A stretch of DNA of 36,663 nt from a virus. This document shows, piece after piece, positions 2,638 through 36,663 of the stretch (the first letter of the stretch is position 1; every line of letters starts with the position of its first letter). The stretch is taken from the IMG/VR virus record IMGVR_UViG_3300044846_001849, positions 1 through 36,663 of that record; one strand, 5' to 3'. Below the pieces are notes generated by a model. It did not search any database. It was not told the origin of the DNA and saw nothing but the letters and a program-made list of their open reading frames with translations. The translations under genes and the position numbers were made by a program.

Positions 2638-3048
2638 ATGAAATTAATTATTAAAGAAGTGAAGAAAGTTGAATTTTCAAACGCTGATGTATTCAGCGGA
2701 GCGTTTCAATCAAGAGGGGTGCTAGTTGAAGCAGTTGTGACAGACTGCCCAGACAGAGCTTGGCTGGAAATCGGGTTTAATGAAATGACCGTTATTGACG
2801 GCAAAGAAGTATCTTTGTTTTTAAAAGATGACGCGCAAGACACACTTGCTGCGTTGTGGAGAGTTCAACAGCAAGTTGCAACAGACTTGCCTTTAGTTAA
2901 AAAAATTGTATCCAGCAAGTTTATTGCTGAAGACACACATGGTAGGGATGTTGTGTGCGATACAATGGAAGAAGCGTTGGACGCACATAAAAGATTTGGC
3001 AATCCACGCCAAATCGATGACGTGCAATTTATTTCTGGAGAAATCTAA
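2638..3048 (+). CDS. Hypothetical protein, 136 aa, first gene of the operator-controlled operon
   Basis: I do not recognise this family. The start at 2638 has a clear AGGAG 9 bp upstream. The protein looks soluble and mixed alpha/beta, with an N-terminal strand-rich part and a C-terminal half containing a Lys-Lys-Ile-Val segment and an Asp/Glu-rich helix. It is the first gene after palindrome O1 and its promoter, so it is probably made early and under repressor control. Its stop codon overlaps the next ATG (TAATG), implying coupled translation with the acidic 107-aa protein. Confidence 0.75.
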   Translation: MKLIIKEVKKVEFSNADVFSGAFQSRGVLVEAVVTDCPDRAWLEIGFNEMTVIDGKEVSLFLKDDAQDTLAALWRVQQQVATDLPLVKKIVSSKFIAEDTHGRDVVCDTMEEALDAHKRFGNPRQIDDVQFISGEI

Positions 3049-3371
3049 TGGAAATACAACTTTACTTCGACATCGTATCAAACGATGGTGTTGACATTGG
3101 CGTTGCGGCTACAGCAACACTTAGCGGTAAATATATACCTGCTGATTTTCACCACGACATTGAAGATGATCGTGAGTGTTTAGTTGGCGACATTTCATTT
3201 ACCGATGAAGAAGGTGAAGAAATGATTGGTTCAGAAAAATTGACAGAAATAGTCTATGAACACGTTAACGACAACGACATTAATATTTACAAAGACGCTG
3301 AAAAAGGCGGTTATATTTTTTACATCGACAACTTCAAAAGCGATCACGATTACGCGGCATTAATGCAATAA
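3048..3371 (+). CDS. Strongly acidic hypothetical protein, 107 aa
   Basis: By my count the protein has about 26 Asp and Glu residues against about 6 Lys and Arg. It looks strand-rich and soluble, without Cys pairs or a membrane segment. Strong acidity at this size is seen in DNA mimics that inhibit host nucleases or repressors, but it also occurs in unrelated small phage proteins, and I see no match to Ocr or ArdA. It is coupled to the previous gene by a TAATG overlap and is followed by a terminator at 3390-3414, making a two-gene unit behind O1. Confidence 0.75.
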   Translation: MEIQLYFDIVSNDGVDIGVAATATLSGKYIPADFHHDIEDDRECLVGDISFTDEEGEEMIGSEKLTEIVYEHVNDNDINIYKDAEKGGYIFYIDNFKSDHDYAALMQ

Positions 3372-3389
3372 CAAACAACTCCTACCTCT

Positions 3390-3414
3390 GCCGCTAAGAC
3401 AAGTGGCTTTTTTT
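3390..3414 (+). terminator. Short intrinsic terminator after the two-gene operon
   Basis: A 6-bp stem (3390-3395 with 3402-3407, one G.T wobble) with a 6-nt loop is followed by seven T residues. It lies 19 bp after the stop at 3371. The stem is short, so some read-through into the tiny-gene cluster behind it is expected. Confidence 0.6.
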
Positions 3415-3426
3415 GAGATACAAAAA

Positions 3427-3582
3427 ATGAAAACTATATATGATTTTTTACTAATGCTAGACCAAACTGGTTTTGCTTATGCTATTTTTTTATTATGCTT
3501 TTTGATTATGGCTGATTACTATTTTAAAGCACAAGAAGAGATAATCAGATTGCGTAAAATATTGAAGCAGGTAATGAGATGA
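3427..3582 (+). CDS. Small single-pass membrane protein, 51 aa
   Basis: The frame from ATG 3427 encodes one hydrophobic segment (about residues 16-32: Phe, Ala, Ile, Leu, Cys, Met rich) followed by a Lys/Arg/Glu-rich amphipathic tail, so the tail is probably cytoplasmic or forms a coiled coil. No lipobox is seen. Its TGA stop overlaps the next ATG (ATGA), supporting that it is a real coupled gene. The function is unknown; its place among early genes argues against a lysis role. Confidence 0.6.
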   Translation: MKTIYDFLLMLDQTGFAYAIFLLCFLIMADYYFKAQEEIIRLRKILKQVMR

Positions 3583-3803
3583 TTACAAAAGAAATAGATA
3601 CGGTAGCAGAAATGGTTGAAAAAGCAATAAATTCTAATAATGGTGAAATTTTTGCATCGGTTTGCAGGTTACTTATAGATGGCTTGGTAATTCTTGCCAA
3701 TACATCTTCTGATGAAGATCATAAAGAACGCTTTGTTCAATTAGTTGTTAAACAAATGCGTGATGAGTTAGAAATAACACAAAAAACAATAAAACAATTT
3801 TAG
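3579..3803 (+). CDS. Hypothetical protein, 74 aa
   Basis: I do not recognise this small helical protein. It is mostly alpha-helical by composition, with an N-terminal acidic helix, a Cys-Arg-Leu-Leu-Ile hydrophobic centre and a C-terminal Lys/Gln-rich helix. It begins in an ATGA overlap with the membrane protein gene before it and is followed after 10 bp by the next gene. The central hydrophobic stretch is too short and interrupted to be a confident membrane helix. Confidence 0.65.
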   Translation: MITKEIDTVAEMVEKAINSNNGEIFASVCRLLIDGLVILANTSSDEDHKERFVQLVVKQMRDELEITQKTIKQF

Positions 3804-3813
3804 GAATAATATT

Positions 3814-4062
3814 ATGAGCGCAACATTAGCACTAACGCTGTCATTTTTGACAGTAGACACAAACATCGACAAGCGCGGCAGAACAACACAGGTTGAGCGC
3901 ATTGCCTACACAACAACGGCAATACCTTATGACACGCGACAAGCATGCGCTAACGCCAAAGAAGAATGGAATCTTGCTGTTGGTGCTTACCAAATGTCAA
4001 AACGCCCTGCACGGGTGATTATGGCGGTCTGCAATGACAGCGCAACGGGAGTGGTAGAATGA
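3814..4062 (+). CDS. Small two-cysteine hypothetical protein, 82 aa
   Basis: The protein has a moderately hydrophobic N-terminus, a central RQACANAKEEW segment and a C-terminal AVC motif. The spacing of two single cysteines around an alpha helix resembles the 67-aa protein at 6303-6506, which also starts with M-x-A-T and ends with a Cys-containing strand. They may be distant paralogues with one disulfide. A GGAATAAT ribosome binding site precedes ATG 3814, and the gene overlaps the next start by an ATGA. The function is unknown. Confidence 0.65.
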   Translation: MSATLALTLSFLTVDTNIDKRGRTTQVERIAYTTTAIPYDTRQACANAKEEWNLAVGAYQMSKRPARVIMAVCNDSATGVVE

Positions 4063-4259
4063 AAAAAGATTTAATTTGGGTGGCTATTTGTTCATTCTTG
4101 ATAGGTGCATTGCTTTGCTTTATTACAATAGCAGCAACACACAGACATCATTATGAAATTATTAAAACAAATATTGGCGAGTTTGTTTTAAGAGACGGTA
4201 AGATTTTTACTGTTTATGAGATGCAACGCAATGTTGCTGGGGATATGGTGGCGAGATGA
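4059..4259 (+). CDS. Small membrane-anchored protein, 66 aa
   Basis: Residues 4-26 form one strong hydrophobic helix after an MKKD start, followed by a His-rich turn and a short strand-rich domain with a GEFVLRDGK motif. The two N-terminal lysines suggest N-in, C-out topology, either as an anchored protein or with an uncleaved signal. It is coupled to both neighbours by overlapping start and stop codons (ATGA at 4059 and at 4256). Function unknown. Confidence 0.65.
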   Translation: MKKDLIWVAICSFLIGALLCFITIAATHRHHYEIIKTNIGEFVLRDGKIFTVYEMQRNVAGDMVAR

Positions 4260-4414
4260 AACAGATTGCATTAGAAGAACACCTGATTAACAGGCTTAAT
4301 GAATTAAAAGAAGAACGTAAAAGCCTGAAGCGTCAAAAACTGCGCAGCATTAAAGAAACCATTGATATTCAATTTATATTGGCAAAATTTATAGAGGAAC
4401 GTAAACATGGCTGA
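4256..4414 (+). CDS. Small charged coiled-coil protein, 52 aa
   Basis: ATG 4256 overlaps the TGA of the gene before it. The product is almost entirely helical, with Leu/Ile at heptad-like spacing in a Lys/Glu/Arg-rich background (for example LNELKEERKSLKRQK), typical of a short coiled coil. It ends at TGA 4412-4414 inside the next tiny gene. The function is unknown. Support comes from the coding overlaps and the regular amphipathic pattern. Confidence 0.55.
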   Translation: MKQIALEEHLINRLNELKEERKSLKRQKLRSIKETIDIQFILAKFIEERKHG

Positions 4415-4484
4415 GTTAATTTTTTGGACTGGCATTTTTGTTTTAATAGTTTGTTTTATGGTGGAGTACGCGAGTGGAGATTGA
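4407..4484 (+). CDS. Tiny membrane peptide, 25 aa
   Basis: ATG 4407 follows GAGGAACG and the frame runs to TGA 4482-4484. About 17 residues form a hydrophobic helix (MAELIFWTGIFVLIVCFMV) followed by a short acidic tail. At 25 residues it would not be called by most gene finders. It overlaps both neighbours, as the other tiny genes here do. It could be a membrane-active regulator or inhibitor, but this is only a suggestion. Confidence 0.4.
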   Translation: MAELIFWTGIFVLIVCFMVEYASGD

Positions 4485-4551
4485 CGACATTGCAGCATTA
4501 ATATTCTATGTGTTAGCACTCATATTAGCGGGGATATGGCTATGGCATTAA
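4474..4551 (+). CDS. Possible tiny membrane peptide with GTG start, 25 aa
   Basis: The frame from GTG 4474 encodes an acidic N-terminus (EIDD) and one hydrophobic helix ending in WLWH. It overlaps the gene before it by 11 bp and the gene after it by 10 bp. A GGTGGAG motif lies upstream. The GTG start and the very small size make this a low-confidence call, but its composition mirrors the tiny peptide just upstream. Confidence 0.3.
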   Translation: MEIDDIAALIFYVLALILAGIWLWH

Positions 4552-4703
4552 TTAAACCAGTTGAGAATGTAACACCAACGCCAAGCGCGACCAATTGCCA
4601 GCATAAAACATGGCGGCAATATGTAAGCAGAGGAATTAGGGAGTGTGATCGTTGTCATGAAATACGCCCTATTTTTGATTTAAAAATTGAACATCAAAGG
4701 TAA
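4542..4703 (+). CDS. Small zinc-ribbon-like protein, 53 aa
   Basis: The product contains a CQH motif at residues 19-21 and CDRCHE at 35-40, so four Cys/His ligands (C-x-H and C-x2-C) are spaced as in a short zinc ribbon or knuckle. The rest is basic and could contact nucleic acid. It starts inside the preceding tiny frame and ends 4 bp before the next ATG. Its small size fits phage zinc-finger proteins that modify host transcription or bind DNA, but no specific role can be assigned. Confidence 0.5.
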   Translation: MALIKPVENVTPTPSATNCQHKTWRQYVSRGIRECDRCHEIRPIFDLKIEHQR

Positions 4704-4707
4704 TAGC

Positions 4708-5349
4708 ATGGTGCAACCAATAAAAAGAGATTTAAAAGTTTCGCTTAAAGAGTTGGAAAGTATAAAAGAAAACATTATTTATTGTGGTGGAACAGGAACA
4801 TTTTACCGAAAAAGAACGCCTGACAAACCGTTGTCTTTTAACTACTCAAATCGGCAAGCCACCATTTGCGTTAAAAAAGAAAACGGTAAAAAATACTTTA
4901 CCGCATGGCGCATGGCTGTTTTCTTTTCATATGGTTATTATCCAAGCTTTGAAGATGCTGTTATTTTTAAAGACGGTGATAATTATAATTTTAGAATTAA
5001 TAACATCGTTGTTTGCCATCCAAACGAAGATGAACAGACCGTTTTAGACTTTGCTACTGAACATGGTTTATCGCCACAAACGGTTAATTATCGCATGAGA
5101 AATGCAATACGATTTGAGCGCATTGTAAAAAACTGGAGAGTGTTTTTTTATGATAAAAAAGAGTTTGCAAAATACTGCGGTGATCTGATTGGTAGAAGGT
5201 TGGTTGTTGATGATGAAGGAATTGAACACATACAAATTAAGCGCATTAATTTATCAGAAAGCCAGCGCGGAAATAAAACCGCACGGGAATTTTTAAAAAC
5301 GTGGATTGGCGACATGCCTACACAATGGGAGATGACATTATGCAGATAA
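4708..5349 (+). CDS. HNH-fold-like DNA-binding protein with apparently lost catalytic His
   Basis: I start the gene at ATG 4708, 7 bp after AAAGG; an upstream TTG at 4687 is less likely. The 213-residue protein resembles phage HNH endonucleases of the AP2/HNH_3 type: an N-terminal Tyr/Phe-rich sheet, an AWRMAVFFSYGYYP segment equivalent to the usual RLAW-Y-G-P motif, and DGDNYNFRINNIVV equivalent to the D-N-R-x-x-N-L end of the HNH motif. The catalytic Asp-His pair expected just before it reads FEDAVIF, so His seems absent. A helix-turn-helix-like part follows (about residues 115-140). I infer a former homing endonuclease kept as a DNA-binding protein. Confidence 0.55.
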   Translation: MVQPIKRDLKVSLKELESIKENIIYCGGTGTFYRKRTPDKPLSFNYSNRQATICVKKENGKKYFTAWRMAVFFSYGYYPSFEDAVIFKDGDNYNFRINNIVVCHPNEDEQTVLDFATEHGLSPQTVNYRMRNAIRFERIVKNWRVFFYDKKEFAKYCGDLIGRRLVVDDEGIEHIQIKRINLSESQRGNKTAREFLKTWIGDMPTQWEMTLCR

Positions 5350-5774
5350 AAAAAGCAAGACCAAGCGCGGTTATTCCGCAATTTCAAACCGAAGGCGCAG
5401 CCGCTATTGATTTATGCGCTTGTATTGAAGAAACCATGCTTTTAACACCAGAAACGCCCGTGCTAATTCATACAGGCATTGCAATCCACATTGATGATAA
5501 GTCTGTTGTTGGCTTAATTGTTCCGCGTAGTGGGCTAGGGTTTAATTATGGCGTTGGTTTGATGAACACGGTTGGCGTAATTGACAGTGATTATCAAGGC
5601 GAAATTATGGTTAAGTTGCGCATGACACATGGTGATAGTTATCGAATCCAGCCTAACGAGCGTATTGCTCAAATGTTTTTTGTGCCTGTATTGCGTCCGA
5701 TATTTGAAGAAGTTGAAGAATTTAGCGCAGTGACTGAGCGCGGTGTTGGTGGCTTTGGGAGTACAGGGAAATGA
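5340..5774 (+). CDS. dut: dUTP diphosphatase (dUTPase), trimeric type
   Basis: The enzyme hydrolyses dUTP to dUMP and PPi, supplying dTMP precursor and keeping uracil out of phage DNA. All five motifs of the trimeric family are present in order: GAAAIDL, PRSGLG, NTVGVIDSDYQGEI, RIAQMFF and the Gly-rich C-terminal arm GVGGFGSTG that closes the active site. The length of 144 residues is normal. I chose ATG 5340, which follows GGGAG by 8 bp; an upstream in-frame ATG would add 13 residues not typical of the family. It overlaps the previous gene by 10 bp. Confidence 0.96.
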   Translation: MQIKKARPSAVIPQFQTEGAAAIDLCACIEETMLLTPETPVLIHTGIAIHIDDKSVVGLIVPRSGLGFNYGVGLMNTVGVIDSDYQGEIMVKLRMTHGDSYRIQPNERIAQMFFVPVLRPIFEEVEEFSAVTERGVGGFGSTGK

Positions 5775-5890
5775 CACCTGAGCAATATGTAAAAGAACAA
5801 CAAGGAATATTGCGCCAATTAGCATGGTTAATCAATGCCGCTAGAATTGGTGAATTGCATACTTTAAAAATAAAAGAAGGTAAAAAATGA
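5771..5890 (+). CDS. Tiny hypothetical protein, 39 aa
   Basis: ATG 5771 overlaps the dUTPase stop (ATGA) and the frame ends in a second ATGA overlap with the next gene at 5887. The peptide is helical and basic at its end (KIKEGKK), with an aliphatic centre (LRQLAWLINAARI). The two overlapping junctions and a GGGAA motif upstream support translation. Function unknown. Confidence 0.5.
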   Translation: MTPEQYVKEQQGILRQLAWLINAARIGELHTLKIKEGKK

Positions 5891-6306
5891 GCTTATTAAC
5901 AAACGAACAAATTGCGGAATTGGTTGGCATTGCTAGTAACCAATCAACAAGTAAAGATTTATATGAGGAGTTTCGTGAATGGAACAAAAAGCAAACAGGG
6001 ATGCAAGTTGATCTCGATTGGAGTAAAGCACCAGAATGCGCAGACAGAGCAGAAATAAATTTTTATTGGGCTAGTGAAGATACATGGAGATTCTGTTTCC
6101 GAATAGCAAAATACCACCGACCAGAACCAGTAATCACACCACATCCACACGCAGAAATGATAGCTAAGTACGCAGAAGTAGCGCAAAGACGTGTTGACCC
6201 TTGGGTTGAGTTTGAAGTCAACCTCGATAATAATTGGGAGAAAATAATGGGTAACCCCGCATGGCTTGATTATAGAGAATACCGCTACATCGGAGAAACA
6301 AAATGA
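5887..6306 (+). CDS. Conserved phage protein with W-x-P-x-W-x-YR repeat-like domain, 139 aa
   Basis: The C-terminal half (PHAEMIAKYAEVAQRR, then VDPWVEFEV, NNWEKIMGNPAWLDYREYRYI) follows a pattern seen in many small phage proteins: a helix beginning with PHAE, then strands with spaced Trp residues and a final YR-I. The N-terminal half may be a diverged copy, since it ends in a similar W-RF-FRI-KYHRPEP pattern. No enzymatic motif is visible. It is coupled to its neighbours on both sides by overlaps. The function of this family is not known to me. Confidence 0.65.
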   Translation: MSLLTNEQIAELVGIASNQSTSKDLYEEFREWNKKQTGMQVDLDWSKAPECADRAEINFYWASEDTWRFCFRIAKYHRPEPVITPHPHAEMIAKYAEVAQRRVDPWVEFEVNLDNNWEKIMGNPAWLDYREYRYIGETK

Positions 6307-6506
6307 TTGCAACAACAGCTTACATTTTAATTACTACTATCATTCACGACGGCAATATTGCACAAACTAATACATCCTTTGCAGACAAGGCATCATGCGA
6401 AAGCGCGGCAGTTAGACAAGACTTTGTTTTAAAATCTATGGACACGCATTTAACGCGCTGGAATCTAACTTGCCACCCATATCAACTTAGTGAGATTAAA
6501 AAATGA
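6303..6506 (+). CDS. Small two-cysteine hypothetical protein, 67 aa
   Basis: The protein has a hydrophobic, Thr/Ile-rich N-terminus, a central DKASCESAA helix and a second Cys near the C-terminus (LTCHPY). The architecture is like that of the 82-aa protein at 3814-4062: N-terminal strand, helix starting with Cys, long linker, terminal Cys strand. This suggests a single disulfide and possibly export, although no standard signal peptide with basic N-terminus is present. It begins in an ATGA overlap and ends in one. Confidence 0.6.
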   Translation: MIATTAYILITTIIHDGNIAQTNTSFADKASCESAAVRQDFVLKSMDTHLTRWNLTCHPYQLSEIKK

Positions 6507-7006
6507 TCCAGCAAATTCTTCAGCGCGGAAACCGTCAAGGCATGACAATGCGCGAAATAACCGAGCTAACAGATTTAAAGCAACACCAAGTGGAATTTAA
6601 GGTTCAAAAGTTAATCAAGGAGGGCGTTGTGCATAAATCTGCTGATAGAATAGACAATGCGTATTTGTACACATTGACAAGCTATGAAGAATTGATGCCA
6701 TTTGTTGAATGTTCGCCAGTGCGATTGGATAATGTTATTAAACATTTAAACAAGCAGAAAGAACGAGTTAATGCAGGCGCACAGATTAAAACAAGCGACC
6801 CAGTAAATTCACCAAGCCACTATACTAACGGTTCTGTTGAATGTATCGATGCAATCGAATCAATGCTAACAAAAGAAGAATTTATCGGATTTTTACGCGG
6901 GAACATATTAAAATATCAGTGGCGTTATAAGCAAAAAAACGGTGCTGAGGATTTAAAAAAGGCGCAGTGGTATTTTGACAAGTTAAAAGAAAAAGAGGGC
7001 GTGTAA
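6503..7006 (+). CDS. Winged-helix/DUF3310 fusion protein
   Basis: Residues 1 to about 85 look like a winged helix-turn-helix (MTMREITELTDLKQHQVEFK, then VQKLIKEGVV). Residues about 100-165 match DUF3310 (SPSHYTNG at the start, then FLRGNILKYQWRYKQKNG and DLKKAQWYFDKL), a helical domain common in phage early regions and sometimes labelled nucleotide kinase without good proof. The family is usually a stand-alone domain of about 60-130 residues, so the N-terminal DNA-binding-like part is notable. It lies in the overlapping early gene chain (start 6503 within the previous stop, TAATG at 7004-7008). Confidence 0.8.
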   Translation: MIQQILQRGNRQGMTMREITELTDLKQHQVEFKVQKLIKEGVVHKSADRIDNAYLYTLTSYEELMPFVECSPVRLDNVIKHLNKQKERVNAGAQIKTSDPVNSPSHYTNGSVECIDAIESMLTKEEFIGFLRGNILKYQWRYKQKNGAEDLKKAQWYFDKLKEKEGV

Positions 7007-7137
7007 TGTATGAATTTAAAAGTGGTAAACCATCAGGCGGCTTGCGTTATCAAGCCATGCGCGATTATTTGATAAAATTAAAATGGTTTGCAGATAACCC
7101 CATGCAACCAGTGTTTATAAGTGAACGCAGTGCATGA
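7006..7137 (+). CDS. Tiny hypothetical protein, 43 aa
   Basis: ATG 7006 shares a base with the TAA of the DUF3310 gene. The peptide begins MYEFKSGKPSGGLRYQAM and is basic. Its TGA overlaps the start of the next tiny gene (ATGA at 7134). The nested overlaps match the pattern of the whole early block. I do not recognise the family. Confidence 0.5.
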   Translation: MYEFKSGKPSGGLRYQAMRDYLIKLKWFADNPMQPVFISERSA

Positions 7138-7262
7138 AACCACGACTTAAAAAGATAGGCAGAATTTGGTTATGCTATACGCAAACAACCATAGTTTGCA
7201 CTGGTTCAACACCTGAACAAGCCTATCAAAAATGGATGATTAAAAATAAAGCCGCTGAATAA
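7134..7262 (+). CDS. Small conserved phage protein, 42 aa
   Basis: The product (KPRLKKIGRIWLCYTQ, then GSTPEQAYQKW) has the layout of a widespread short phage protein: basic start, W-x-C strand, a TPxxAYxxW helix and a basic end. Its function is unknown. It is the last rightward gene; the stop codon lies inside the bidirectional terminator at 7248-7273, so the mRNA ends immediately after it. Confidence 0.6.
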   Translation: MKPRLKKIGRIWLCYTQTTIVCTGSTPEQAYQKWMIKNKAAE

Positions 7263-30703: not shown

Positions 30704-30924
30704 TTTAAAATAGCAGGTAGCTCTTTGCGTTCTGGGATGTCATTGATGCGTGTTTGTGCATCAAGGACTAAACGTGCATTATCCACGATTGTACGCGCAA
30801 TAATCGTCAAACTTTTTGAGCGTTCTGCTTCAAAAGCAAGTTGTTCAACGCTTAATGATTCTTCGCTCAATCTTTCCATTTGAGCAAATAAATGATTGTT
30901 TAAATCTGTCAGTGTATTTTTCAT
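30700..30924 (-). CDS. Small helical phage protein upstream of HNH and terminase, 74 aa
   Basis: The pattern LNNHLFAQMERLSEE at the start and an ARTIVDNARLVLDAQ helix is found in many phages directly before terminase genes, so the family is conserved, but I know of no proven function. The helices would suit a dimer or a DNA-packaging accessory. It is the first gene of the late arm behind the long non-coding region, with an AGGAA ribosome binding site. Its 3' end overlaps the HNH start by 4 bp. Confidence 0.7.
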   Translation of the reverse strand: MKNTLTDLNNHLFAQMERLSEESLSVEQLAFEAERSKSLTIIARTIVDNARLVLDAQTRINDIPERKELPAILK

Positions 30925-30960
30925 TCTTGTTCCTGTTTAAGTTAACCATCAAGTAATTAA

Positions 30961-30988: not shown

Positions 30989-31064
30989 GAAACACGATGC
31001 GATAACTGCTCCCGTCTTTTTTTCGTGCGAGAGGACACGCGTTAGGGTTTAATTCTTCATGGTT

Positions 31065-31101
31065 AAAAAACCACCACGCCATAAACTGCAATGAGTGGTG
31101 G
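31065..31101 (-). terminator. Intrinsic terminator of the candidate ncRNA
   Basis: On the minus strand CCACCAC pairs with GTGGTGG (31095-31101 with 31071-31077); a CAT/ATG extension inside the loop can strengthen it, and six T residues follow at 31070-31065. It ends any minus-strand transcript from the region above before the packaging genes. Confidence 0.88.
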
Positions 31102-31355
31102 CCGTGTTTTGGTTGATAATAATCTCAGTATTCGTTGGCGTACTTTCAGCCAATCCCAAGTCTCCTATTTCTGAGCGTCGTGCCATTACCGGTGCGCTAT
31201 GCGCGTACTATCAAGTCATAGCATCTAAGCCTGCCTTGGCACTTATAACACATAAGCTCAAACGCTATGCTTGATAGTGCTTGTCTTTCCAAGCTGTCAC
31301 CAACCAACCCAGTTATTGATAAATCGCCATAAAGTGATTTCTGAGTTGGTTGGTT
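31065..31355 (-). ncRNA. Candidate structured non-coding RNA, about 290 nt
   Basis: No reading frame of useful length exists here, but the minus strand has a full RNA gene layout. A promoter lies at 31362-31391, a predicted start near 31355 and a terminator at 31065-31101. From its 5' end the RNA can form: P1 (31341-31354 with 31299-31312, 14 bp), P2 (31290-31294 with 31279-31283), P3 (31256-31278 with 31207-31230, 23 bp with one bulge), a small GCGC stem (31201-31204 with 31194-31197), and P5 (31171-31175 with 31124-31128) enclosing P4 (31149-31153 with 31135-31139). All four imperfect pairs in P1 and P3 are G.U on this strand but C.A on the other. I recognise no known RNA family. Confidence 0.7.
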
Positions 31356-31361
31356 AAAAAG

Positions 31362-31391
31362 ATTATATTCTAAAAAGTAAAAAAATGTAAA
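31362..31391 (-). promoter_or_regulatory. Promoter of the candidate ncRNA
   Basis: On the minus strand TTTACA (31386-31391) and a perfect TATAAT (31362-31367) are 18 bp apart, a strong sigma70-type promoter by sequence. The expected start near 31355 coincides with the first base pairs of hairpin P1. The -35 box is the left half of a degenerate copy of the operator palindrome. Confidence 0.7.
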
Positions 31392-31403
31392 TAATAATTT
31401 ACC
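31386..31403. promoter_or_regulatory. Degenerate operator-like palindrome O4
   Basis: TGTAAATAATAATTTACC matches the 18-bp operator core at 16 of 18 positions. It covers the -35 box of the ncRNA promoter. Binding by the same regulator would couple ncRNA synthesis to the early operons. Confidence 0.5.
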
Positions 31404-31417
31404 ATTGTTTTTTTAAA

Positions 31418-31688
31418 AGGTAACAGTTGCAAATTTTATCTGTTACCTTCCTAAAACCTATGCAGTTATTGGGCTTAAGTGTGTTTTTATATCAAAAAGG
31501 TAACAGATAAAAATTTAATTTACCTCTCCAACATTTTTATAATAAATTTATAATTTATAATTTATTCTATAGACTTATTATTATCTGTTACCTGTTACCT
31601 TTGGTCTAATAAACATATATAAATAGCGGACTGCAATAGGTAACAGATAGATTTTTATCTGTTACCTTTTAGGCTTTATCTGTTACCT
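31418..31688. repeat. Iteron array, candidate replication origin
   Basis: The element AGGTAACAG (consensus AGGTAACAGATAAAA) occurs eight times: plus orientation at 31418, 31498 and 31638; minus orientation at 31440, 31585, 31592, 31659 and 31680. A very AT-rich tract (31507-31584) lies between copies. The pair at 31638-31667 forms a 12-bp inverted repeat with a 6-nt loop. The array directly follows the primase-polymerase/helicase gene. In satellite phage P4, a primase-helicase of related domain composition binds iterons at its own origin, so this is the best origin candidate. The spacing is irregular, which excludes a CRISPR array. Confidence 0.7.
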
Positions 31689-31690
31689 TT

Positions 31691-34171
31691 TTAAAAATCA
31701 TCATCAACTGCAAGCGTTTCATTGAGCAACTGCCTGCAACGTTCCGCATCTAAATCACGCGATCTTTTTACCCAAACTCGATGCGGTTTACCTTGCCACT
31801 TTACCTGCTTATCAAATTTCATATATCCTAAACCTTCTAAAATACGTCTAATGGTCTTGGTGTTTAACTCTGGAAATTCATAGTCACTAAAACTATTTGC
31901 TCCCATTGCACTGGTAAGCGCAGAGCTGGAAATAATACTATCGCTATACCCAACACCGCCTTTTTGTATAAACGTATTTAAATCGCAAATCTCTGCGCCT
32001 TTTTCAGCACTAATCATTGATAGTTTTTCTGCTGTCAATGGCGCGTGTCCATAAGGCTTAAAATCCTCACTGATTTTAAAATCAAGAAAAAAGCGTCTAA
32101 TTGAACCGCCATGATATGTAATAGCGTTTTTTAATTTATCAAAATACTCATATATGTCGCCAACATCGCGTTCCATATCTTGACGATTTAAGTAAGGCGC
32201 AAAAATAACCCACCATCTTCTATCGTGGTCATTAAGAGGCAAAGCGTCACGGTGATTTGTAAAAGCAATGTAATTAGTTACGTTCACAATAGAATAGTTA
32301 TCCCTATTCATACGTCTAATGTCTATTGTGGCGTTGGTTATCATCGGCTTTATGGTATCTAGTACATCAAAACGATTATGTCCAGCCACGCGCAATTCTT
32401 CAAGAACAACAACGCAACTCCCCTCTGCCCAGCCGGTAAACTTGTCCTGAAGTGCTGTAGGTGGCAGCGGTTTTACGTTACGCCCACCAAGGCAACACGC
32501 GATAACCTCAGCAATGGTGCTTTTTCCATCCCCCTCAAAACCTTGAATCAAAGGTGCAAAATTAATTTTTTTGCCAATGTTTTGAGTGTTGTACGCAATA
32601 AAATCAAGCAAAAAACGCGTTTCTTTTTCACGTTTTCCGCAAATATTTCTAATATGCTTAATAACTAAATCAACAGCTAATTTTCCGTCATCGCTTATTT
32701 TATATTCTGCTTGTGGTAAACTATCAACCGAAAAAGCGTTAACGCATTCAAGACCTTCATGTGGAAAAAACTGCAAATTTTGAGGCATATAAATTGCTCG
32801 GCTAAAGCACTTTATAAAATTATTGTTTAACGCAAAATTTGCAGCCCCTCTGCTTGCTCCTTCATCTTCGCCATTATCTAAAATTTCCCTTGTGTAATTA
32901 GCATCAAACGATTGCTTACTAATTTCTTCTTTTGTGTATAAATGATAAAACTTATCACGATCATTAAGCCAAACCCATGGCAAACAAAAAGCAGGGGTTT
33001 CTGGTGATAATTGACGCAACTTTGTTGGTGTTAGTAGTTTTCTTGCAATGCCAACAGATATAATTACATTACCTAAAATTTTAAAACGATTGCGCCATTC
33101 ACCAATAATGGTTTCACGCCCAATAGCAGATAAATTTAAATCACTTCGTATAGTATCAGCAACAACACCTTCCATATCCGTTACATTTGAACAGCTTGAA
33201 ATTAATTGTGAAAGCGTTTGTGATGACTGAATACTGAGCGCGGTGGCATTGCGTTTTCTTACCTTATTTGCTTCATAACGCAGAGATGCAACAGTTAATT
33301 TTTTTTCACTAGTATCGCGCAAACCGTCCCAAACTTTTACCGTGCAAGCGTCTGGATGCTCAGGACAAGCTGACCATTCTCGCCACAAAACATAGCCTTT
33401 ATCATAATCCCAACGCTTTAACATAAAGCCAACATGAACCCAGTCATCATGTTGGGTTTTATCCCACTTTTCTTGTATAACTAAATCAGCTCTTATGCCT
33501 TCGATTTCATCTTCTATTTGAAATTCTTTAAAATCATCTTCTTCATCGTCAATAACACCAACAACTACTGGCAATACTTTCTGCACGTTGTCAGGCGTAA
33601 ACCCATCAAACGTCACATCATGCGCCCCGAATTTCTCAAGCATCGGCTTAAGTGATACAAGCCACGCACGAACCTGCTTAACATTAACGCTTGGCAATTC
33701 ATCAACTTTGGTGTTGATTGGCTCGTCACCTGCGTTTAAATCCCATACATAAGGCTTTTTAGTATCTGGGTGTGTGCCATACGCAATAAACTGTTGACCG
33801 TTTGCAAGAATCTCAATAGCTGGGTTTTCCAGTCCATCAAACTTAAATTTTATTTTGTGCTTAGTCATTGCTTCATTAATTCTAATCAGCATCAAGCATT
33901 TAGGCTTATTGCCAAACCGAACAGGCGCAAAGCCAAAAGCCGATTGCGCACTAGCCAGAACGCTTTTAGCCATGTCCTCGTTTAATATATCAATATCAAT
34001 AGCGATTAAACGATCACCCAGCACGATACCGACATTTTTATCAGCCGCATATTTCTTCCAAGACGGGTCATTTTCTCGATGTTGCCAACCGTTGCCAAGT
34101 GGTCGCTTACCATTTGCTGGCGTAATGGTGTAACCGTTTTTATCTAAATCATCATAAACGCTACTTAACAT
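31691..34171 (-). CDS. Primase-polymerase/SF3 helicase replication protein
   Basis: The 826-residue protein combines an N-terminal archaeo-eukaryotic primase-like domain (DID at 59-61, GTHP with His134, preceded by a NGKRPLGNGW motif) with a middle region of unclear function and a C-terminal superfamily 3 helicase. Its Walker A is GFEGDGKST at 544-552, followed by a VVVLEEL Walker B and an FTNHRDALPL sensor motif. A winged-helix-like C-terminus may bind the origin. No separate DNA polymerase gene is seen in the window, so this enzyme may prime, unwind and perhaps polymerise. Its start overlaps the HTH gene by 11 bp, and iterons lie just behind its stop codon. Confidence 0.9.
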   Translation of the reverse strand: MLSSVYDDLDKNGYTITPANGKRPLGNGWQHRENDPSWKKYAADKNVGIVLGDRLIAIDIDILNEDMAKSVLASAQSAFGFAPVRFGNKPKCLMLIRINEAMTKHKIKFKFDGLENPAIEILANGQQFIAYGTHPDTKKPYVWDLNAGDEPINTKVDELPSVNVKQVRAWLVSLKPMLEKFGAHDVTFDGFTPDNVQKVLPVVVGVIDDEEDDFKEFQIEDEIEGIRADLVIQEKWDKTQHDDWVHVGFMLKRWDYDKGYVLWREWSACPEHPDACTVKVWDGLRDTSEKKLTVASLRYEANKVRKRNATALSIQSSQTLSQLISSCSNVTDMEGVVADTIRSDLNLSAIGRETIIGEWRNRFKILGNVIISVGIARKLLTPTKLRQLSPETPAFCLPWVWLNDRDKFYHLYTKEEISKQSFDANYTREILDNGEDEGASRGAANFALNNNFIKCFSRAIYMPQNLQFFPHEGLECVNAFSVDSLPQAEYKISDDGKLAVDLVIKHIRNICGKREKETRFLLDFIAYNTQNIGKKINFAPLIQGFEGDGKSTIAEVIACCLGGRNVKPLPPTALQDKFTGWAEGSCVVVLEELRVAGHNRFDVLDTIKPMITNATIDIRRMNRDNYSIVNVTNYIAFTNHRDALPLNDHDRRWWVIFAPYLNRQDMERDVGDIYEYFDKLKNAITYHGGSIRRFFLDFKISEDFKPYGHAPLTAEKLSMISAEKGAEICDLNTFIQKGGVGYSDSIISSSALTSAMGANSFSDYEFPELNTKTIRRILEGLGYMKFDKQVKWQGKPHRVWVKRSRDLDAERCRQLLNETLAVDDDF

Positions 34172-34346
34172 TTTTTAATCCTTTTTTAATTTTGTTATAG
34201 GTAAATAGCGTCACGTTGTCGGTTTTGCCGTTCTTGATGTTGTAGATGGTCATAAAACTGACATGACATAGCGCAGCTATCTTGCGCAATGCTATCCCGT
34301 CATGCTGTTTGAGTAAGTCTTGAAGCTCATTTATAAAATCTTGCAT
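34161..34346 (-). CDS. Small HTH transcription regulator (Cro/C1-like), 61 aa
   Basis: The protein is little more than one helix-turn-helix domain: LRKIAALCHVSFMTIYNIKN contains the turn and recognition helix. There is no C-terminal oligomerisation or cleavage domain, so it resembles Cro rather than a LexA-type CI. It is the first leftward gene, directly beside the imperfect palindrome at 34374-34391, and its end overlaps the replication gene start. I infer that it binds the four palindromes listed here and controls the divergent promoters and its own operon. An AAAGG ribosome binding site precedes ATG 34346. Confidence 0.83.
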   Translation of the reverse strand: MQDFINELQDLLKQHDGIALRKIAALCHVSFMTIYNIKNGKTDNVTLFTYNKIKKGLKNVK

Positions 34347-34373: not shown

Positions 34374-34391
34374 TGTAAATTATATTTTACA
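34374..34391. promoter_or_regulatory. Operator-like palindrome O2 in the divergent control region
   Basis: TGTAAATTATATTTTACA is the 18-bp palindrome with one mismatched pair. It sits in the only divergent intergenic gap, between the HTH gene (start 34346) and the rightward gene at 34429. TATAAT boxes occur on the minus strand within it (34379-34384) and next to it (34391-34396), so binding would cover the leftward promoter; rightward promoter elements are less clear. Confidence 0.7.
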
Positions 34392-34428: not shown

Positions 34429-34866
34429 ATGAACAAAGAAGAATTATCAATCAGAACCGCGTCAATATTGCGCTTGCAGCTTGAGTATGACCAACTAATC
34501 ATTAAAGCAGAGTTTCTGCAAACGCTGATTATTAAAGAGCGTTTTGCGCTTGAATCAATTAACAATCCGACTATTGAGGAGCATTTGGGCGTTGATGTTG
34601 TGGCGGTGGATAATACGCCACCACAGCCGCAAACGCAAAAACGTAAACAGGTAGCAGTTGAAAGTGAAGAAACGCTAGAAGGCGTAAAAGATTGCCTGAA
34701 GCAACTGAGCATTAAAACAAACAGCCGTAAAATATCACTGGAAATATTGCGCAAGTTTAACGTCGAAAAAACGGTTGATTTAGATCCGCGTGATTATGGC
34801 AGAGTTTGCAGGATGGCAGTTGAAGCTTTAAACGAAATGTTAAAGGCTAAAAAAAATGACAACTAA
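34429..34866 (+). CDS. Hypothetical early replication-module protein, 145 aa
   Basis: The N-terminal 50 residues are helical and likely coiled coil (EELSIRTASILRLQLEYDQL onward). A Pro/Gln-rich linker follows. The C-terminal 60 residues (TLEGVKDCLKQLSI, then LEILRKFNVEKTVDL and DYGRVCRMAVEAL) resemble a short domain attached to several phage recombination and replication proteins, where a helix is followed by the 'LKKFG-x-x-x-x-x-DL' pattern. It is the first rightward gene, after the control region, with a CGGAG ribosome binding site, and overlaps the nuclease gene by 11 bp. A partner role with the nuclease is likely but unproven. Confidence 0.65.
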   Translation: MNKEELSIRTASILRLQLEYDQLIIKAEFLQTLIIKERFALESINNPTIEEHLGVDVVAVDNTPPQPQTQKRKQVAVESEETLEGVKDCLKQLSIKTNSRKISLEILRKFNVEKTVDLDPRDYGRVCRMAVEALNEMLKAKKNDN

Positions 34867-35977
34867 ACACGCAAAATTAGGCGCATCATCGAGTGAACGC
34901 TGGATTAACTGCCCAGCGTCAGTTCGTATGTGTGAGAACCTGCCAAACACGTCCTCTACATTTGCTGCTGAAGGAACAGCTGCGCATGAGCTTTCCGAAA
35001 AATGCTTAATGACAGCTAAACCCGCAGCGCATTATTTTGGATTAAAATTTAATGGTTTTGTCGTAACAGATGACATGGCTATGCACGTTCAAAAATACGT
35101 TGATTATGTTAACGCTGTTGGTGGCGTGTTGCTATTTGAGCAACGTGTGGACTTTAGCCGTTGGGTGCATGAAGGATTTGGAACGGCTGACGCAATTGTT
35201 ATTGATGAAAGCAATAAAACCATTCATGTTATTGATTTGAAATATGGCAAAGGCGTTGCTGTGTATGCGCGGCATAACACACAGGCGCAACTTTACGCGC
35301 TGGGTGCGTATGATTTATTTGCCCATATTTATGATGTTGAGTACATAAAAATGCACATTCACCAGCCACGCATTGATAACGTAACGAGCTGGGAAATTAC
35401 AGTTGATGAATTGCTTGCGTTTGGAGATGAAGTAAAACTACGAGCTGAAGCAACACTTGATGTTAATGCGCCATTTAATCCAACTGAAAAAGGCTGTATG
35501 TGGTGCGCAGCTAAACCCACTTGCGCAGCATTAGCACAAAAAACGTTTGAGGTTGTCACGTCTGATTTTGAAATAACAAATGAACCGCAATTACTTGCGG
35601 TTGAGAGTTTAACGCCTGAGCAGATTGCGCAAATACTCCCTAATTTGCCATTGATTGAATCATGGATTAAGAGCGTAAAAGAACACGCTTATGATTTGGC
35701 TAATGCAGATCAGCTCAAAGGCTATAAACTGGTAGCTGGCAGAAACTCACGCAAGTGGAACGCTGACGATGATGCAATTAAAAGCGCATTAACTGCTATG
35801 AATATCAACCCAATTAAAAGCGAATTAATTAGTGTTGCGCAGGCTGAAAAACTAATCAGCAAAGAAGATAAGCCAATGTTTTCAAACCTTTACGCAACAC
35901 TATCAGGAAGTCCAACACTTGCAACTATTGACGATAAACGCCCAGAATTAAAAAATGTGCTTGACGATTTTGATTAA
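34856..35977 (+). CDS. DUF2800 PD-(D/E)XK nuclease with Cys cluster
   Basis: The 373-residue protein has the RecB/Cas4-like core: FEQRVDF, GTADAIVI, IDLKYGKG (Asp127, Lys129) and the QAQLYALGA motif. Cysteines at residue 19 and in the C-terminal CMWCAAKPTC stretch are arranged like the Fe-S cluster of Cas4/AddB-type nucleases (one N-terminal and three C-terminal Cys). DUF2800 genes are commonly paired with DUF2815 ssDNA-binding genes, as here, in phage recombination modules. It probably resects DNA ends. The stop codon abuts palindrome O3 at 35978, and the ssb promoter -35 box lies inside its last codons. Confidence 0.9.
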   Translation: MTTKHAKLGASSSERWINCPASVRMCENLPNTSSTFAAEGTAAHELSEKCLMTAKPAAHYFGLKFNGFVVTDDMAMHVQKYVDYVNAVGGVLLFEQRVDFSRWVHEGFGTADAIVIDESNKTIHVIDLKYGKGVAVYARHNTQAQLYALGAYDLFAHIYDVEYIKMHIHQPRIDNVTSWEITVDELLAFGDEVKLRAEATLDVNAPFNPTEKGCMWCAAKPTCAALAQKTFEVVTSDFEITNEPQLLAVESLTPEQIAQILPNLPLIESWIKSVKEHAYDLANADQLKGYKLVAGRNSRKWNADDDAIKSALTAMNINPIKSELISVAQAEKLISKEDKPMFSNLYATLSGSPTLATIDDKRPELKNVLDDFD

Positions 35978-36012
35978 TGTAAATTATAATTTACACGCCT
36001 TAACAGTAAGGC
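35961..36012 (+). promoter_or_regulatory. Promoter, operator O3 and 5' hairpin for the ssDNA-binding protein gene
   Basis: TTGACG (35961-35966) and TATAAT (35985-35990) are 18 bp apart. The -10 lies in the perfect palindrome TGTAAATTATAATTTACA (35978-35995, operator O3). The predicted start near 35997 is the first base of a hairpin with a 6-bp stem GCCTTA/TAAGGC and ACAG loop (35997-36012), so the mRNA would start with a stem-loop that can protect its 5' end. Repressor on O3 would block RNA polymerase. Confidence 0.72.
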
Positions 36013-36054: not shown

Positions 36055-36579
36055 ATGGCTGCAATTATGTTAAAAAACGTTCGTCTTTCTTTTGCTTCAC
36101 TATTTGAATATGAAGAATACAACCAAGAAAGCACCGGCAAATATGCCGCAACGTTTCTCCTCGATAAATCTCAACACGCTGACACCATCAAATTGATTGA
36201 AAAAACAATTGCTGATTTTGCCGTTGAAAAGTTTGGCGCAGGTAAAGTGCCTAAACTTTACAAACAGCCGTTAATGGACGGTGATATGCAAGATTATGAC
36301 GGTTATGCAGGGTGTATGAGCATCAAAGGGTCAACAAAAAAACGCCCTATTGTTATTGACCAACAAAAGGTCACACTCACCAAAGAAGATGAACGCATTT
36401 TTAGCGGTGATTATGTCAATGCTAAAATTGACTTTTGGTTTCAAGATAACTCATATGGCAAACGCATTAACTGTAATTTGATCGCAGTGCAGTTATTTAA
36501 ACAAGGTGAACGGTTTGGCGGTGGTGATGCGTCGGTTGATGACTTTGATTCTTATGATGAAAATGACGATGATTTTTAA
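36055..36579 (+). CDS. Single-stranded DNA-binding protein, DUF2815 family
   Basis: The 174-residue protein matches DUF2815, a phage ssDNA-binding family unrelated in sequence to bacterial SSB: MLKNVRLSFASLFEYEEYNQ at the start, KYAATFLLDKSQHADTIKLI, then GYAGCMSIKGSTKKRP and a strand SGDYVNAKIDFWFQDNSYGK. The C-terminus is strongly acidic (DDFDSYDENDDDF), the usual tip for docking partner proteins. It coats replicating or recombining ssDNA and should work with the DUF2800 nuclease upstream and the VRR-NUC and SNF2 enzymes beyond the circle junction. AAGGA precedes ATG 36055. Its 3' end is repeated at 2-94. Confidence 0.93.
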   Translation: MAAIMLKNVRLSFASLFEYEEYNQESTGKYAATFLLDKSQHADTIKLIEKTIADFAVEKFGAGKVPKLYKQPLMDGDMQDYDGYAGCMSIKGSTKKRPIVIDQQKVTLTKEDERIFSGDYVNAKIDFWFQDNSYGKRINCNLIAVQLFKQGERFGGGDASVDDFDSYDENDDDF

Positions 36580-36663
36580 TTGATGTTTATTTGATGGTTA
36601 TTTGATTTTAACCAACTGTCAAGTAATCCTTGATAGTTGGTTTTTTTATAAAAAAACTTATAG
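36486..36663. repeat. Terminal direct repeat, right copy
   Basis: This is the second copy of bases 1-178, with differences at 36534 and 36537 only. It contains the 3' end of the ssDNA-binding protein gene and its terminator. It marks the circular junction of the assembled genome. Confidence 0.95.
36610..36647 (+). terminator. Intrinsic terminator after the ssDNA-binding protein gene (right copy)
   Basis: The same 14-bp stem, 5-nt loop and T tract as at 125-162. It belongs to the same physical locus on the circular map. Confidence 0.85.

Follow-up and report, generated by a model that had tools for sequence, protein, structure and literature searches.

An 18-bp palindrome recurring in a virus record of 36,663 nucleotides (IMGVR_UViG_3300044846_001849; "the window" below denotes this whole stretch) raises the question whether its copies are the operators of a single regulon, and whether the small helix-turn-helix (HTH) protein encoded beside one of them is their regulator, as a preliminary description had proposed. 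A search of the whole window with TGTAAATTATAATTTACA, allowing up to three mismatches, returned exactly four places, at the positions and with the mismatch grades previously reported (0 at 2541 and 35978, 1 at 34374, 2 at 31386):

Site A, 2541-2558: no mismatch to TGTAAATTATAATTTACA, a perfect copy
Site B, 31386-31403: two mismatches, degenerate arms
Site C, 34374-34391: one mismatch, letters TGTAAATTATATTTTACA, the same in every relative aligned here; lies in the gap where the HTH-primase operon and the operon of gene 34429 and the exonuclease diverge
Site D, 35978-35995: no mismatch to TGTAAATTATAATTTACA, a perfect copy

By chance, 0.16 sites would be expected in this search, and none of 100 shuffles gave four; a search with the arms only (TGTAAA-N6-TTTACA, at most one mismatch) found the same four sites against 0.5 expected, and about 0.003 sites were expected in sequence simulated at intergenic composition (GC 33%). 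The earlier observation that the sites occupy only intergenic gaps holds for all four, in a window of which 6% is intergenic (2.2 kb of 36.7 kb; p ~1e-5). The next-best match to TGTAAATTATAATTTACA, at 31549 and likewise intergenic, has four mismatches, and the best matches within gene interiors have at least five; the genes of the window therefore hold no sites of equal quality, let alone the many against which the preliminary description had guarded. Across all of IMG/VR, the exact 18-mer occurs in 29 stretches; those outside the window family each have a single copy and code for no protein related to the HTH protein, primase, exonuclease, ssDNA-binding protein or helicase, and are therefore regarded as background.

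Queries with the HTH protein and the exonuclease retrieved about a dozen related IMG/VR contigs, among them 3300046002_003891 (L031), with 83-90% protein-level identity to the window, and a 39-kb contig in a Methylomonas MAG (L087); a profile search with a three-sequence HTH profile gained no further relatives. Exactly four sites, in orthologous places, are present in four near-complete genomes (the window, G002, G003 and G001:C25). In a set of five representative genomes, A, C and D have arms that are 100% identical, against 85-91% in their flanks, and B has arms that are 87% identical, against 58%. The DNA around B has been largely replaced between two types of genome (primase ~72% identical), and the site is still present; it reads TGTAAATAATAATTTACC, or a variant ending in ACT, in one type and TGTAAATTATAATTGTCA in the other, the latter form occurring in most relatives together with TTGACA-17-TATCAT. 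The palindrome is a real and conserved feature. The mismatched pair of site C falls in the central 6 bp and is identical in all 12 relatives' loci aligned there (12/12), and L087 shows the mirror image of this change at its ssDNA-binding protein site; the asymmetry of C therefore marks nothing special. It had been suggested that this imperfect copy beside the regulator gene is a weaker site that gives ordered repression; that assignment fails, the degenerate arms being those of B. Ordered repression is possible, with B, not the site at the regulator gene, as the predicted weak site.

What the sites could control is indicated by the genes and transcription units around them:

31691-34171, minus strand: primase-polymerase/helicase (Prim-Pol, PriCT_2, DUF5906), immediately downstream of the HTH gene and co-oriented with it
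34161-34346, minus strand: 61-aa HTH regulator with a predicted XRE/lambda-repressor-like fold, candidate binder of all four sites
34429-34866, plus strand: 145-aa protein that opens the divergent arm and matches no family
34856-35977, plus strand: DUF2800/Cas4-like exonuclease; site D begins right after its stop codon
36055-36579, plus strand: Enc34-type ssDNA-binding protein (ssb), behind D
2638-7262, plus strand: accessory/nucleotide-metabolism run behind A (HNH-like protein, dUTPase, DUF3310 protein)
31058-31350, minus strand: structured RNA (ncRNA) between B and the late operon; fold z -6.4, terminator-like hairpin at its end
7275-30924, minus strand: late operon; leftward from 30924, phrog_2044, HNH endonuclease, terminase, portal, head, tail, lysis

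An intrinsic terminator follows the ssb gene at 36610-36642. The ends of the window form a repeat of ~180 bp with a few mismatches (1-178 vs 36486-36663), which probably means a circularly permuted record or one assembled from a mixed population.

Promoters were scored as the best score within 138 bp around each site, with 150 random window segments as control (median 6.9, maximum 10.8). Site D scored 14.0 and site B 13.6-14.2 on the minus strand, followed by A (9.8-9.9) and C (about 9); B and D, with 11 of 12 consensus matches each, were the two best promoters that the scan found in the last 6 kb. At D, the centre of the palindrome is the -10 box of TTGACG-18-TATAAT, reading into the ssb gene; at B, the minus-strand arm TTTACA is the -35 box of TTTACA-18-TATAAT, a promoter that points leftward toward the ncRNA and the late operon; at A, the right arm TTTACA is the -35 box of TTTACA-17-TAATAT, ahead of the 2638 operon. 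Measured against the consensus, C has a weak promoter; its clearest feature is a minus-strand extended -10, TGTTATAAT, which ends at the first base of the operator and is kept in all relatives, and the start site at C would fall inside the operator. The claim that every copy overlaps a -10 or -35 box is clearly borne out at B and D and moderately at A, but C offers only a weak or extended -10.

Such overlap could mean that the palindromes are promoter elements and nothing else, symmetric -10 or paired -35 boxes that fire both ways with no regulator involved. At the centres of A and D, ATTATAAT reads TATAAT on both strands, and bidirectional promoters based on -10 symmetry are common in E. coli (PMC12825309). 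This symmetry is, however, broken at C and at the window's B, where the TGTAAA arms remain; A and D have a sense gene in one direction only; and neither arm of D is a -35 box, its TTGACG lying upstream, yet both arms are invariant. Near-identical 18-mers at four loci would also be needless for promoters, and an explanation by promoter function alone is unlikely.

The relation of B to its downstream genes differs from what had been described, where the palindrome was said never to occur in the late arm and the ncRNA was counted as a member of the regulon. B stands at the head of a leftward unit, and the first conserved ORF in that unit is the gene that opens the late operon. In L001, L002, L046 and L087, B lies 215-238 bp upstream of the first late ORF; no ncRNA and no stronger promoter intervene, and B therefore heads the leader of the late arm. 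The ncRNA is an insertion, absent from L002, L046, L001 and L087, with the window and L052 carrying an insertion at this spot; since several relatives do without it, the ncRNA was rejected as a conserved target, and its membership in the regulon has to be given up. An Rfam scan of the window and the ncRNA region yielded nothing at gathering score, and plant miRNA families at chance level only.

Several other features of this region were observed. The ncRNA insertion sits between the B-promoter hairpin and the late leader; a different insert occupies the spot in L052, apparently also in L031 and L003, and this succession of differing inserts gives the place the look of a mobile RNA slot. Within the ncRNA, 41 bp (31129-31169) are 93% identical to the Erwinia jumbo phages pEa_SNUABM_37/48, where the counterpart lies next to a tRNA-Asn gene, in a gap without annotation. 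In L087, the first leader hairpin runs directly into a T run, like an intrinsic terminator, which would leave room for antitermination. The first late gene belongs to phrog_2044, annotated as 'RNA polymerase beta subunit'; 67 bp within it (30859-30925) share 82-88% DNA identity with Staphylococcus and Lysinibacillus phages, an unusual likeness between such distant phages. From site B to the primase end (31410-31690), GGTAACAG/CTGTTACC recurs several times in direct and inverted orientation, an iteron-like arrangement and a possible origin; in L002, whose primase is of another type, the repeat motif reads GGTACCAG.

At the opposite end of the window, five different first genes were found among nine genomes, 76-82 bp behind the same operator A, and the position looks like an accessory slot. 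With its variable first gene, the stretch at 2559-2640 and its counterparts in relatives could be a hot spot for genes of accessory or anti-defence function.

The HTH gene lies beside the 34374 copy, as noted before, at 34161-34346 on the minus strand, and the primase gene starts before it ends. The protein matches phrog_7126 (E=3.8e-7) and phrog_13059 (E=1.8e-6), both HTH DNA-binding proteins, and is 43% identical to FtMidnight gp33. With this family it shares the HTH similarity over ~61 aa, the overlap of the gene with the primase start in divergent orientation to a replication/recombination arm, and the 18-bp palindrome TGTMAA-N6 upstream, the last being proposed here as a family character. 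An AlphaFold model predicts a compact, all-helical domain (pLDDT 88), for which the closest matches among solved structures are XRE regulators, HipB, restriction controller proteins, P22 c2 and 434 Cro; Z scores of 6.8-8.4 against XRE proteins over 55-59 residues indicate a lambda-repressor-like fold. The Foldseek E-values were weak (0.04), so that the likeness is that of a common fold, and a search with the HTH profile against the sequences of solved structures found nothing significant. The predicted XRE/434-Cro-like fold fits operators of this kind.

Homologs of the HTH protein, 31-43% identical, occur in Septimatrevirus, KL1-like phages, FtMidnight and the IMG/VR contigs L072-L076, and in Septimatrevirus, Burkholderia phage KL1, Variovorax phages and coliphage FtMidnight the gene occupies the same place, again running into the start of the primase gene. 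For genomes with an intact gap, the stretch of 170 bp that precedes the HTH gene was compared, with further contigs added by profile; the PSV3 clone assemblies, with a duplicated and probably chimeric upstream stretch, were left out, as was L084 (74% over 23 residues), a partial match inside another protein. Every upstream region with an intact gap contained TGTCAA-N6-TTGACA, in perfect form and ~66-76 bp before the HTH gene in Septimatrevirus, the KL1-like phages, FtMidnight and L072-L076. The central six bases differ (CAACAA, CAAGCA, TAGGCA, TAGCAG), and the arms and their spacing are therefore the part that is kept. The recognition helix reads SHEL(I/V)RKL in these phages (SHELVRKV in FtMidnight) and SFMTI(Y/H)NI in the window family, where one letter per half of the palindrome is changed to give TGTAAA arms; this covariation of helix and arms comprises two states only. 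Comparative genomics ties the palindrome to the HTH family, though on just these two operator states. Of the proposed single regulon centred on the HTH protein, one palindrome family placed on intergenic promoters and comparatively linked to this protein stands, and the ncRNA drops out.

The same comparison returns to the reading by promoter function alone: each arm is a perfect -35 box in Septimatrevirus, KL1 and FtMidnight, and in the TGTCAA phages it serves one of two divergent promoters with a 17-bp spacer, so that promoter selection alone could keep that palindrome. The window family answers this caveat in part, through the arms of D and C.

Five Casjensviridae with the same gene order (Nazgul, JS26, phiAxp-2, SS2019XI and iEPS5; L090-L094) have a different small protein in the HTH slot, belonging to phrog_7401 in four cases and without a match in the fifth; within one mismatch, no such palindrome is present in their gap. 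In iEPS5, the gap upstream of the primase holds another palindrome, CTTGACAGATGTCAAG. Outside the window family, phage 73, KL1 and FtMidnight each yielded only one convincing site, and the four-site regulon is therefore specific to the window group; a multi-site regulon in these three phages was considered and discarded, since the two-mismatch matches mostly share only one TTGACA, a -35 box.

Other proteins could in principle bind the sites. AT-rich palindromes are typical of several bacterial regulators, and the phage might borrow a host regulon by way of a host protein. In the 4.3-Mb Methylomonas MAG, however, the four sites lie on the phage contig, with one two-mismatch match elsewhere and one arm-only match on another contig; this near absence of other matches makes a host regulon unlikely, although a MAG bin is no proof of the host. 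Moreover, phages of several host genera, among them phages of Pseudomonas, Burkholderia and E. coli, have the related operator next to an HTH gene of their own, and a host regulator is a very improbable binder. Equally little credit is due to another phage protein such as the DUF3310 protein at 6503-7006, a potential second DNA-binding protein that is conserved in G001, G002 and G003; it weakly matches phrog_1123 in its N-terminal half, which may form a winged helix. It has no positional link to the sites, whereas the palindrome goes with the HTH gene in four phage groups.

The HTH protein, as the preferred binder, resembles 434 Cro and P22 c2 in size (~60-70 aa) and predicted fold (Z 6.8 for 434 Cro, 6.8-6.9 for P22 c2), and the system shares with lambdoid Cro/C2 repressors the palindromic operators on divergent promoters. 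Operators of the 434 type have a 6-bp centre. Lambdoid phages have a clustered three-site switch, in contrast to the window's four single operators at separate loci, one per promoter; unlike Cro/C2, the window's HTH gene overlaps and precedes a primase gene. Among the ~40 window proteins scanned, no CI-type or prophage repressor and no integrase family was found; with neither an opposing repressor nor an integrase nor clustered operators, this is not a lambdoid genetic switch. The Cro protein of PY54 binds a 16-bp palindrome (PMC4488713). Restriction-modification C proteins and HipB antitoxins are similar to the HTH protein in predicted fold and single-domain size, but differ in gene context, the window protein having no restriction or toxin gene as partner. 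Further close counterparts are the HTH proteins of Septimatrevirus, Kilunavirus KL1 and FtMidnight (phrog_13059), which agree in position, size, primase overlap and palindrome geometry; this group, which includes KL1 gp36 and phage 73 gp35, differs in its recognition helix, its TGTCAA arms and its one site per genome. The KL1 and DLP1/DLP2 papers annotate this protein only as 'transcriptional regulator', and the word 'promoter' is absent from both (PMC3483164, PMC4559383). The regulon of the window, which is most probably that of the HTH protein, has spread unusually to four promoters in this group.

Judged by sequence comparison and the modelled fold, the HTH protein is quite likely a Cro-like repressor of the phrog_7126/13059 family that controls its own and three other promoters through four operators; dimerisation, binding, the sign of control (repression, not activation) and the sequence of events are presumed. 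It would act as a Cro-like dimer, each monomer reading one TGTAAA arm, and the 6-bp centre would not be read directly, as in the operators of phages 434 and P22. Since every site covers or abuts a -35 box, a -10 box or a start site, the bound dimer is proposed to block RNA polymerase. The protein would repress its own HTH-primase operon at C, the ssb promoter at D, the accessory operon at A, and at B the leftward promoter that heads the late arm with its virion genes. Autorepression would limit the level of the HTH protein, and B, with the poorest arms, would be held least tightly; the protein could in this way serve as an early shut-off and timing device in the lytic cycle. A bolder version, rather doubtful at this point, makes it the master switch of a strictly lytic phage, freeing the late operon via B, whose promoter would feed a leader with a terminator-like hairpin, and licensing a hypervariable cassette via A; were it true, new genes inserted behind A would come at once under phage timing.

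For the HTH family that stands before the primase in many lytic phages, including common phages of Pseudomonas aeruginosa, the palindrome supplies a concrete candidate operator. The comparison also suggests how one operator may have spread: a site at one divergent promoter would have become four, one of them before a swappable accessory slot in which new phage genes turn up and another at the head of the late genes.
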